Shown here piece after piece: positions 5,994 to 55,319 of a DNA stretch of 64,000 nucleotides. How positions within the stretch are numbered: the stretch's first letter is position 1; every line of letters begins with the position of its first letter. Under the pieces are notes generated by a model. It was not told where the DNA came from, made no database searches, and was given only the letters and a program-made list of their open reading frames with translations. The DNA lies in assembly GCF_038595065.1 (NCBI RefSeq), contig NZ_CP152003.1:2832001-2896000 (forward strand). Reading direction: 5' to 3'. A program made the translations under genes and the position numbers. This DNA is from Sutcliffiella sp. FSL R7-0096 (GTDB taxonomy: Bacteria; Bacillota; Bacilli; Bacillales; Bacillaceae_I).

Positions 5994-6063
5994 GGTGGAT
6001 TAAAATTGCGTATAGGAAAATAAACAGTGTACTGATATTAATTTTACACTGCTTGCAATCTAT

Positions 6064-6210
6064 AATCCTTCTCCCATCCAGACTTTCACTGTCGGCCCTG
6101 GAGTTGCACCAGATCCACCGCTTTTCTTTATCAAGAAAACCGGGTCACGGACTAAGAAGCACTTGGCTTCATCACCGCCGGTAGGGAATTTCACCCACCC
6201 CCGAAGGACA
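6064..6210 (-). promoter_or_regulatory. FMN riboswitch (RFN element)
   Basis: The minus strand carries the RFN signature in order: CTTCGGGGGTGGGTGAAAT, CCCTACCGGCGGTGATGAAG, AGTCCGTGACCCG, GGTGGATCTGGTGC, and the closing CCGACAGTGAAAGTCTGGAT followed by GGGAGAAG. This is the conserved FMN-sensing aptamer found before rib operons of Bacillus. It controls ribD-ribE-ribBA-ribH (and perhaps ribT). Confidence 0.97.
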
Positions 6211-6236
6211 TTCATATGTAGTTGTCTTTCATTATT

Positions 6237-25228: not shown

Positions 25229-26152
25229 TTGATACCTAAAAAGCAACTTGGAACATCCGAGTTATATGTAAGCCAGCTTGGACTTGGCTGTATGTCTCTT
25301 GGAACGGAAGAAAAGAAAGCGACAGAAATTGTAAAGAAAGCCCTGGACCTTGGGATCAATTATCTTGATACAGCCGATCTCTACGATTTTGGGAAAAATG
25401 AAGAAATAGTGGGGAAGGCTCTAAAGGGACAGCGGGAAAAAGTCATTCTTGCCACCAAAGTTGGAAACAGTTGGACTTCTGGTAAGGAAGGGTGGGAATG
25501 GGATCCCAGCAAAGAACATATCCTCTCTGCAGTAAAAGACAGCTTACATAGACTGCAAACCGACTATATCGACCTGTATCAGCTTCACGGAGGGACGATT
25601 GATGACCCGACTGACGAGACCATTGAAGCATTCGAGGAATTAAAAAAAGGCGGATATATACGTGAATATGGAATATCCTCTATCAGACCCAATGTGATAA
25701 AGAGATTTGTCGAAAGATCATCCATTGTTTCTGTCATGATGCAATATAGCATGCTTGATACACGCCCAGAAGAATGGCTGGATTACTTGCATGAAAACAA
25801 AATCAGTGTGATTGCTCGAGGCCCATTGGCAAAAGGATTACTGTCAGAGCGTGGGCTTGAAAAGCTACAGGATAAATTCAATGGAAAAAGCTACCTTGAT
25901 TATAGCAATGAAGACCTCTCTGCACTTTTGCCTAAGCTCACACAACTATCTGGTGAAAAACCGCTTCAATCGTCCGCTTTCCATTATTGCCTGACACACC
26001 CGGCAGTTGCCGCAGTTATCCCTGGCGCAAGTTCCCTTGGTCAATTAGAGGCAAATGTCAGTGCCATCTACGAACAAGGGCTGTCGGAGGATGATTACAA
26101 AGTATATAAAGAGCTTTTGAAACAGTCTATTTATGAAACACATCGAGGCTAA
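25229..26152 (+). CDS. yqkF: Aldo/keto reductase, YqkF-like
   Basis: A 307-residue NADPH-dependent aldo/keto reductase of the TIM-barrel superfamily. Signatures are LGLGCMSLGTEEKKATEIV, INYLDTADLYDFGKNEEIVGKAL (catalytic Asp and Tyr), ILATKVGN (Lys) and DYIDLYQLHGG (His). The substrate is unknown. The start is TTG at 25229, six bases after AAGGAGGG; the next Met is 21 codons in, too late. Same position as B. subtilis yqkF. Its terminator hairpin begins at the stop codon and has been duplicated around an inserted element. Confidence 0.92.
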   Translation: MIPKKQLGTSELYVSQLGLGCMSLGTEEKKATEIVKKALDLGINYLDTADLYDFGKNEEIVGKALKGQREKVILATKVGNSWTSGKEGWEWDPSKEHILSAVKDSLHRLQTDYIDLYQLHGGTIDDPTDETIEAFEELKKGGYIREYGISSIRPNVIKRFVERSSIVSVMMQYSMLDTRPEEWLDYLHENKISVIARGPLAKGLLSERGLEKLQDKFNGKSYLDYSNEDLSALLPKLTQLSGEKPLQSSAFHYCLTHPAVAAVIPGASSLGQLEANVSAIYEQGLSEDDYKVYKELLKQSIYETHRG

Positions 26153-26437
26153 GCAGTTCCCTAATAGGGAAACTGCTTTTAGTGTGTAGACAAAGTTAAT
26201 TATTATTCAATATGATGAGATTCTCGTGTTGATCGTAGTGAAAGGCGCGAAGACTCCCGCGGGAGGAAGGGACAGGGAAGACCCCGCAGGGCGTAAGCCC
26301 GAGGAGGCTTCCGGACCGCCCGCAGGAAAGCGAAGCGCCTGGAACGAAGATCAACAGTTACTTTTAAATCTTAAAATATATAAGGTTTGTCAACAGTCAG
26401 TCTGTAAGCAGTGTCCCTAATAGGGATACTGCTTTTA
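26150..26437 (+). mobile_element. GC-rich structured element flanked by a duplicated terminator hairpin (copy A)
   Basis: Outer direct repeats of about 32 bp: 26150-26181 and 26405-26437, each a hairpin (AAGCAGTTCCCTAATAGGG and partner; one insertion and one substitution between copies). Between them lies a 223-bp insert whose ends are loosely inverted (AGTGTGTAGACAAAG; TTTGTCAACAGTC). Its core, 26228-26355, is GC-rich, closed by GTTGATC/GATCAAC, with inner pairs AGGCGC/GCGCCT, CTCCCGCGGGAG and GGGC-GTAA-GCCC. The core matches 54578-54703 almost base for base. No ORF of note. Confidence 0.8.
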
Positions 26438-54134: not shown

Positions 54135-54341
54135 TTAAAAAATTGCCACTACAATGAGGACAACAATCAAGATAATAATGAAAACCCCTGTAACCTTCCA
54201 ACTCACACCTCCTACAAGGTCAACCAAGCTACCGACCATCCCCCGAGTCAAACCGTCATTAAATGCTCCACCGGGATTCTTTTTCCATTCCTTTTGTCTC
54301 AATCTTTCCCTCTTCTTCTCAGCTCTATCTTTCTCTCCCAT
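54135..54341 (-). CDS. Small single-pass membrane protein
   Basis: A 68-residue protein with a basic, helical N-terminus (EKDRAEKKRERLRQKEWKKN, residues 3-22), a middle GAFNDGLTRGMVGSLVDLVGG and a C-terminal membrane helix (VTGVFIIILIVVLIVVAIF). This layout is common among Bacillus miniproteins of unknown role. GGAGG lies eight bases before ATG. Confidence 0.75.
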   Translation of the reverse strand: MGEKDRAEKKRERLRQKEWKKNPGGAFNDGLTRGMVGSLVDLVGGVSWKVTGVFIIILIVVLIVVAIF

Positions 54342-54514
54342 TTAGAAAACCTCCTATCAGTCCAGTAGCCATTTAAAACCATAGTTACAACTTGTTGAAA
54401 GTTTCATAATAAAATCTAAAAGATTTGATTATAACTTGGCAGCTCTACTTACATTGTTAGGTGACATTTCCGCTGCGATTGCTACTTCATTTACACTTAA
54501 CAAAAAAAGATAGA

Positions 54515-54774
54515 GAGGGAATAATCTTAATTATTCCTTCAGTTTGTAGACAATGGTTAAAATAATGAAATTCTCTAGTTGATCGCAGTGAAAGGAGCGA
54601 AGACTCCTGCGGGAGGAAAGGACATGGAAGACCCCGCAGGGCGTAGCCCGAGGAGGCTTCCGGACTGCCCGCGGAAAGCGAAGCTCCTGCAACGAAGATC
54701 AACTCTTCCAATCGATAACCTAACTAGTTTATAGTTTGTCAACAGTCTGAGGGAATAATCTTAATTATTCCTTC
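54515..54774. mobile_element. GC-rich structured element flanked by a 26-bp duplicated hairpin (copy B)
   Basis: Exact 26-bp direct repeats at 54515-54540 and 54749-54774, each a hairpin (GGAATAAT-CTTA-ATTATTCC). Between them lies a 208-bp insert, ends AGTTTGTAGACAA and TTTGTCAACAGTCT. The core 54578-54703 is closed by GTTGATC/GATCAAC and contains AGGAGC/GCTCCT where copy A has AGGCGC/GCGCCT (pairing kept). The right repeat includes the stop codon of the 54765 gene; the left repeat keeps the T run of its terminator. Confidence 0.82.
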
Positions 54775-55319
54775 TCCCATACTAAATCCTCCCTTTCCTC
54801 TAACTCTTTGATTGTCTTTAAATGATCCTTCTCGTTCACTATTTTGTAGTCATTAATATACTCATTTCCAACTGTAATTTGGAGAGTACCTGTTTTCATC
54901 AAATTATCTTTAGAATTAGATATCAACAAATCAAGTACATAATCCGCTCCGCCTGGTTCCTTGTCAAATTCCCTTTTTAACTCAAGACCTGACAAGTCTT
55001 TCATTATTTCTCGAATCGTCGCCTCTTCTTCAATCAGGATGCTTTCCTTGAATGTATAGGTACTCCTCTCCAATTCAACCTTTCTAATTTTCAAATGCCT
55101 TATCACACTATCTTCACGAACTTTGTCAAATACAACTGCATCAGAAGTAGTGGATCTTATTTGGTCATATAAAAAGTACCCTCCTACAAACACCACCAAA
55201 GCAACTAAGAGTGGCCCGAATCGATTTCTTCTAAGCATTAGCCTAACCGCACCGGCAAATAATGCTCCAAATACCACTAAACTAATAAGAAACTTTAACG
55301 TAAGAACACTGTCAACCAT
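54765..55319 (-). CDS. Uncharacterised membrane-anchored protein
   Basis: A 184-residue protein with two N-terminal hydrophobic segments (LTLKFLISLVVFGALFAGAV near 5-25; FGPLLVALVVFVGGYFLY near 33-50) and a soluble C-terminal domain of about 120 residues (KVRKVELERSTYTFKESILIEEEATIREI, YVLDLLISNSKDNLMKTGTLQITVGN). No family recognised. GGGGAG is five bases before ATG. Its stop and terminator were duplicated by element copy B. Confidence 0.7.
   Translation of the reverse strand: MVDSVLTLKFLISLVVFGALFAGAVRLMLRRNRFGPLLVALVVFVGGYFLYDQIRSTTSDAVVFDKVREDSVIRHLKIRKVELERSTYTFKESILIEEEATIREIMKDLSGLELKREFDKEPGGADYVLDLLISNSKDNLMKTGTLQITVGNEYINDYKIVNEKDHLKTIKELEEREDLVWEKE

Follow-up and report, generated by a model that had tools for sequence, protein, structure and literature searches.

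Within the IS1182 family, IS1272 and TnSha1 of Staphylococcus are the closest described systems to the elements analysed here. Their transposases are of the same family, and their targets are inverted repeats of varying sequence and length, terminator hairpins included, according to the passages on target choice in PMC5678879 and PMC4923244. In the corresponding passages of Furi et al., 2016 (PMC4923244) both elements delete the stem-loop and make no duplication. Wan et al., 2017 set out, in the part devoted to the transposition model, both alternatives for a cruciform target, with duplication following from attack at the 5' feet and loss from attack at the 3' feet, and placed IS1272 in the deleting pathway (PMC5678879). 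Unlike IS1272, which in these accounts replaces the hairpin without target duplication, the miniature elements and insertion sequences described below duplicate the whole hairpin.

The window element and its flanking hairpins

The window is a stretch of 64,000 nucleotides from Sutcliffiella sp. FSL R7-0096 (contig NZ_CP152003.1, positions 2,832,001 to 2,896,000). An earlier note on this DNA had reported identical palindromic repeats of 26 nt at 54515-54540 and 54749-54774. These are indeed identical and are the sole direct-repeat family reported in 54300-55000, and each can form a stem GGAATAAT/ATTATTCC with a loop of 4. When the element ends are anchored on the consensus CAG...CTG of 65 copies, the element occupies 54540-54749 on the plus strand (210 bp), and the exact duplication is 24 bp rather than 26 (54516-54539 = 54750-54773). 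The outer G and C of the 26-nt repeat agree by chance, one base per side.

The inserted sequence is a non-autonomous element (MITE) with a left terminal inverted repeat at 54540-54555 (plus strand; consensus CAGTGTGTAGACAAAG) and a right one at 54734-54749 (minus strand; consensus read inward CAGACTGTTGACAAAC). A GC-rich core lies between AGTTGATC and GATCAACT at 54577-54704 and resembles a repeat group that is widespread in the genus. As a whole, the element has a fold modestly more stable than those of its shuffles (z -2.07). It is too short for an IS1182 transposase and encodes none; the ORF list has a single frame of 60 aa or more across it, of 74 codons, and only the ends of the element match the IS1182 family. 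An RNA-family identity was considered and set aside, the sole gathering-level Rfam match in the window being an FMN riboswitch (RF00050) elsewhere, on the minus strand at 6062-6212.

The target hairpin stands at the 3' end of a minus-strand gene at 54765-55319, whose 184-aa product had no Pfam or NCBIfam match at E 0.001. The gene-proximal copy (54750-54773) holds the TAA stop codon of this gene and has no T run behind it. The copy distal to the gene (54516-54539) is followed on the minus strand by a T7 run, which starts 6 nt after the extended stem and 9 nt after the core stem; the observation that a T run survives only beyond the distal hairpin was therefore correct. The note had also placed the stop codon and the terminator stem within the repeats; the stop codon is there, but 'terminator stem' is too strong. 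An intrinsic terminator has a GC-containing stem directly followed by a T run, whereas here the stem is AT-rich and the T7 run is offset by 6-9 nt, and a consensus scan for intrinsic terminators called none in 54300-55000. The window hairpin is a palindrome located at a gene end, with the T run set off from the stem, and does not qualify as a canonical terminator. Its stability is moderate only. The 26-mer folds at -6.8 kcal/mol (z -2.3; 8 of 200 shuffles equally good), and in their own context the copies are less exceptional, with z -1.7 for the distal copy with its T run and z -0.6 for the proximal copy. Adjoining the insertion site is a small DUF6366 gene (PF19893) at 54135-54341; a similar small gene, judged by eye, directly follows the orthologue in two relatives, G009 and G003.

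A related element lies at 26180-26404 on the plus strand, the copy that the note had linked to yqkF. It sits between two diverged copies of a hairpin unlike the one above, the left at 26151-26179, at the end of an aldo/keto reductase gene, and the right at 26406-26435, changed by an indel and substitutions. This hairpin overlaps the stop codon of the reductase gene, and the description of two insertions with the same core at gene-end hairpins holds. Core matches in the window number two, vs. none in 100 shuffles.

Copies across the genome and in relatives

The note had called for a genome-wide survey of positions relative to stop codons and for an alignment with related strains. Using the window element as a BLAST query, at least 40 copies were found in the 4.9 Mb genome of the strain itself (40 of 255 candidates scored). 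A second copy search, in which 40 of 240 candidates were scored, gave 13 rows new with respect to the first, and these 13 were added; the MITE copy number is thus a lower bound. Patterns for the element ends gave 61 matches for the right end (at most one mismatch) and 59 for the left, with no match for either reversed control. Merging the searches yielded at least 75 clusters, 65 of them with both ends. The other ten, without both recognised ends, were left out, though repeats of 19-27 nt were seen at three of these (1008741, 1268595, 1629589). Duplication boundaries were anchored on the element ends, replacing estimates from the best direct repeat.

Direct repeats of 14 bp or longer, with an identity of 80% or higher, flank 54 of the 65 two-ended copies, with lengths of 15-34 bp, a median of 24.5 bp and 30 perfect cases. 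At least six of eight foot positions are complementary at 55/65 copies vs. 205/5000 combinations of left and right flanks swapped between different copies. By one or the other measure, which together formed our automatic test for a duplicated or symmetric hairpin, 60 of the 65 copies are positive. Four of the five that fail show a hairpin on both sides by eye, with indels or substitutions, among them the copy at 26180, which fails because its two hairpins differ by an indel. Only 1404163, a copy with doubtful ends, has no hairpin pair by eye (1/65). The repeats themselves fold better than 95% of their shuffles in 51 of 54 cases (median z -6.4).

These hairpins lie close to gene ends. We joined the flanks of each copy to the empty site and, among predicted ORFs of 70 aa or more directed towards the hairpin, took the stop codon closest to it, allowing an overlap of up to 40 nt. 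On this count, 58/65 MITE hairpins are within 60 nt of a predicted stop, as compared with 10% of positions drawn at random from the window and 41% of those drawn from intergenic DNA. The median distance is 9 nt among the 63 sites with a stop within 600 nt, and 31/65 sites fall between convergent genes, judged by the two nearest gene ends. At one site (L199; 4549957/4551007 in the same genome) there are apparently two tandem elements with three diverged copies of one hairpin, one between the elements and one on either outer side, which suggests that duplicated hairpins may serve as targets a second time. Beyond this genome, the element, often as the GC-rich core alone, has matches in all 16 genomes of the genus (this one included), and partial matches occur on plasmids of Priestia, Peribacillus, Bacillus and Paenibacillus; among the 13 plasmid records with partial matches, none covers 80% of the element.

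Relatives provide sites without the insertion. The gene next to the window element has matches in 15/16 genomes of the genus (its own included), and we read the downstream region in the eight strong matches outside its own genome (67-84% identical). In G013 and G014 a single hairpin (GGAATAAATGAGTTTATTCC) without an element is followed by a T run, interrupted in G014; in G006 and G007, inspection by eye shows one weaker inverted repeat. The hairpin is absent downstream of the match in G003, G004, G008 and G009. For the other sites the comparison covered 1.2 Mb of the closest relative, G009, plus two loci (L201, L086), in which 15 of the 65 sites could be placed. On our reading, eight of these have a single hairpin without the element (1453210, 1599047, 1643451, 1680205, 1878335, 3484680, 3861514, 4675592), four have an element at the same hairpin (1738706, 3356259, 3659203, 3836947), and three are ambiguous (960814, 1533411 and the window's own site, 2886541, whose hairpin G009 lacks). 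At the eight empty sites the flanks from the insertion-bearing genome overlap on the relative's sequence by 9-30 bp, which is what a target duplication requires. Taken with the genome survey, these empty sites bear out the note's proposal of hairpin-targeted insertion with duplication, a reading that the comparison of sites strongly supports.

An element scan of the same 1.2 Mb of G009 returned 24 rows, representing 14 unique elements, most entered once per strand. Repeats of at least 14 bp flank 11 of the 14, and 8 have at least 6/8 complementary feet; counted over all rows, the latter figure is 12 of 24, vs. 118/1903 for swapped flanks. By eye, two further elements seem to have diverged hairpins, and at one (C2:103394) there is no duplication. 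The hairpin pattern is weaker in these copies than in those of the window's own genome, and the G009 copies look older.

IS1182-family elements as candidate helpers

The genome of the strain contains no PF13751 match and no intact IS1182 transposase was found in it; a single 55-residue match to an IS1182 transposase reaches 36% identity (E 1e-5). PF13751 proteins were found in seven of the 16 genomes of the genus. A complete element of about 1.5 kb in G008 (L087) has the ends CAGCTTGTAGACAAAG and, read outward, TTTGTCTACGGTCTG, and is flanked by a perfect 30-bp hairpin repeat. Its protein is an IS1182-type DDE transposase (NCBIfam NF033551, 477 bits against a cut-off of 270; PF05598, PF13751 and PF01609 over cut-off).

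Searching named genomes with this transposase gave 463 loci, of which we analysed the best 80. Of the 80, 66 had both ends together with 60 nt of flank or more; the 14 left out comprise nine near a contig edge and five with an unrecognised end (L104, L107, L138, L151, L153), although L138 has a 32-nt repeat by the best-direct-repeat estimate. Among these best 80 of 463 loci, 62 of the 66 usable copies carry a direct repeat of 19-42 bp (median 25), 60 of them perfect. Complementary feet (at least 6/8) are present at 59/66 copies vs. 170/5000 swapped flanks, and all 62 repeats fold better than 95% of shuffles (median z -7.1). The 62 ISs come from about 31 species by record titles, 12 copies from Bacillus sp. 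OV166 alone, and we take these species to belong to Bacillaceae, Planococcaceae and Thermoactinomycetaceae. Of the four without a common repeat, L164 has a different hairpin on each side, L108 and L160 have a hairpin on the right only and L161 on the left only, all by eye; these four are perhaps products of recombination between copies. Hairpin repeats were also seen by eye at all four copies of another element with PF13751, in G012 (ends TCAGGCTGTCGAGAAAG).

The ends connect the two kinds of element. Comparing consensuses from 65 MITEs and 62 ISs, the IS left end (CAGACTGTAGACAAAC) agrees with the MITE right end at 15 of 16 positions and with the MITE left end at 13 of 16, so that the MITE and this IS1182 subgroup have terminal inverted repeats in common. 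They also match in target choice and in duplication (15-34 bp at 54/65 MITEs; 19-42 bp at 62/66 ISs). On this comparison the window element is a MITE, a non-autonomous relative of a Bacillaceae-centred IS1182 subgroup, whose transposase presumably moved it.

We considered a more direct parent, an IS1182 transposase gene that lies between two MITE halves in G009 (L067/L086). At the junctions, however, a different IS (ends GAGGCCACTG...) proved to sit inside the core of the MITE, and this candidate was rejected. A PF13751/IS1182-type element (ends GAGGCCACTGAAAA) lies inside GC-rich cores of the MITE repeat group at L066, L071, L074, L078 and L082 in G006 and at L086 in G009, where NCBIfam assigns the protein to IS1182. 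Where read, the nested element is flanked by short repeats such as GGCTACGCC, itself a tiny inverted repeat; it is one parasite inside another. Some GC-rich cores occur in other contexts, e.g. with the nested IS of L086.

Target structure and comparison with known systems

Most DDE transposons make a target duplication of fixed length, set by the geometry of the protein. In the elements described here the length varies, although in perfect repeats the best palindrome is centred with zero dyad shift in 58/60 ISs and 29/30 MITEs. A fixed stagger does not predict zero dyad shift with varying length; attack at equivalent feet of a folded palindrome's two arms does. Inside the repeat, Watson-Crick pairs are found at each of the first nine foot positions in 50-61 of 66 ISs and 49-60 of 65 MITEs. 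Outside it, pairing declines: in ISs the first pair is complementary in 47/60 and pairs five to seven in 24-30/60, and in MITEs the first two pairs reach 33/54 and 34/54 and those beyond 13-24/54. Such an outer tail is consistent with the A and T tracts found at terminators. Since pairing often runs past the duplication, the cut lies in the A/T zone at the stem base and not exactly at the last possible pair; the foot sequence is roughly AA-A[AG][AG]C across the repeat boundary. A run of at least four A or T stands at one foot of 48/54 MITE and 60/62 IS targets, and a run of at least five at 37/54 and 49/62, respectively, vs. 4.7% of positions taken at random in the window. Flanks rich in A and T make it easier for a cruciform to extrude.

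Comparison among copies and relatives establishes the element, its ends, the duplicated hairpins, their dyad symmetry, the empty sites and the matching pattern around full IS1182-family elements. The account that we consider quite probable for the window site is that of an IS1182-type MITE whose ends were joined by a trans-supplied DDE transposase at the 5' feet of the palindrome, with gap repair copying the hairpin. An IS1182-family transposase, supplied in the past, would have linked both of the element's 3' ends to a gene-end or terminator palindrome, one end at the 5' foot of each arm, the target being most simply the two arms of an extruded cruciform. Joining at the 5' feet would leave a hairpin strand on each side for fill-in, and gap repair would copy the whole hairpin to give X-hairpin-element-hairpin-Y, with a target duplication that matches the hairpin in length. 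Attack at the 3' feet would leave the hairpins as flaps to be lost, giving X-element-Y as for IS1272. We infer the extruded cruciform and the gap repair from these patterns. The more general proposal, a DDE transposase whose duplication is measured by DNA structure, with each strand transfer made to one of the 5' feet of an extruded cruciform and a hairpin of about 15-42 bp duplicated whole and centred on the axis, is one that we favour with some reserve.

Other explanations account for parts of these data. Were the hairpins palindromic ends of the element itself, they would be expected beside nearly every copy, as they are; their sequence, however, varies from site to site and a single hairpin stands at empty sites, which refutes this idea. 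A transposase might also choose targets at random or with a short stagger, selection then sparing only the insertions at harmless gene ends; this view draws on the tolerance of gene ends and on the 8/65 sites inside a predicted ORF of at least 70 aa. Yet selection for gene ends cannot centre a duplication on a palindrome, and the proximity to stop codons far exceeds that of random intergenic positions, so this explanation is very improbable.

Two further possibilities concern what the transposase recognises. It might act on a single-stranded hairpin exposed in replication, on the lagging strand, rather than on a double-stranded cruciform; the targets fold readily when single-stranded, and other elements are known to target hairpins in single strands. 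A symmetric duplication, however, needs both strands cut at matching feet, as seen in 58/60 ISs, and there is no significant bias by replication arm (36/65 MITEs, p 0.46, with arms split at an assumed terminus at 2.45 Mb and the origin not located) or by direction relative to a one-sided T run, with which 23/36 MITEs (p 0.13) and 22/38 ISs (p 0.42) are aligned. We regard recognition of a single strand as unlikely. Recruitment by RNA polymerase or terminator RNA, with insertion following transcription termination and the hairpin a mere correlate, is slightly less likely still. The A/T runs at the feet and the 58/65 sites near a stop codon speak for it, but the cuts are symmetric on the DNA dyad, the window target is no canonical terminator and, again, no orientation is significantly preferred. 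A lack of significant orientation bias is as expected for a two-fold symmetric target.

Because the whole hairpin is duplicated, the genes flanking an element probably keep a hairpin and T run beyond it. Either neighbour would thus still reach a hairpin followed by its own T run, and the insertions are likely to be mild; at the window site, where the proximal copy lacks a T run, the distal hairpin would be the one that terminates transcription. Hairpin duplication, together with the 31/65 convergent sites, may help to explain the tolerance of a high copy number and may explain how such elements reach dozens of copies at gene ends.

Among other known systems, group IIC introns likewise insert at intrinsic terminator hairpins, but they are retroelements and insert beside the hairpin without duplicating it. 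The short repeats BOX, RUP and SPRITE (reviewed in PMC10969869) and bcr1 (PMC2267715) are similarly intergenic or structured, with no hairpin-length target duplication reported in the passages on them in these two sources. The main text of that 2024 review of prokaryotic MITEs contains neither 'IS1182' nor 'hairpin' (PMC10969869). Two IS1182 members of similar size, ISCaa15 (1434 bp; PMC3196728) and ISPse1 (1653 bp; PMC3281130), have direct repeats of 4 bp each in the tables of these papers, as against the hairpin repeats of 19-42 bp found here. Among the matches listed in a search of open-licence papers, none describes, in the parts matched, an IS or MITE that regularly duplicates a hairpin.

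The nearest precedent is a prediction. Pathway b of the structure-dependent transposition model, as given in the legend to Figure 13 of Wan et al., 2017, would duplicate the whole stem-loop through attack of the 3' ends at the 5' feet of a cruciform; there it is hypothetical and not the mode of IS1272 (PMC5678879), whereas here the duplicated product is the regular outcome at dozens of sites. A hairpin-replacing mode like that of IS1272 does not describe our elements, which have a hairpin on both sides where empty sites have one. What appears new is that duplication is regularly seen for an IS1182 subgroup present in many Bacillaceae and for the MITEs that have its ends, providing many natural examples of an alternative only sketched in the IS1272 model. 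A duplication that follows the palindrome over 15-42 bp is strong comparative evidence for a folded DNA structure as the target. The contrast lets one ask which feature of the transposase decides between hairpin duplication and deletion, and offers a possible way of mapping which palindromes extrude in living cells. If the reading of attack at the 5' feet of a cruciform is true, the family is a natural in vivo recorder of cruciform extrusion and the mirror image of IS1272, in which attack is at the 3' feet and the hairpin is lost.
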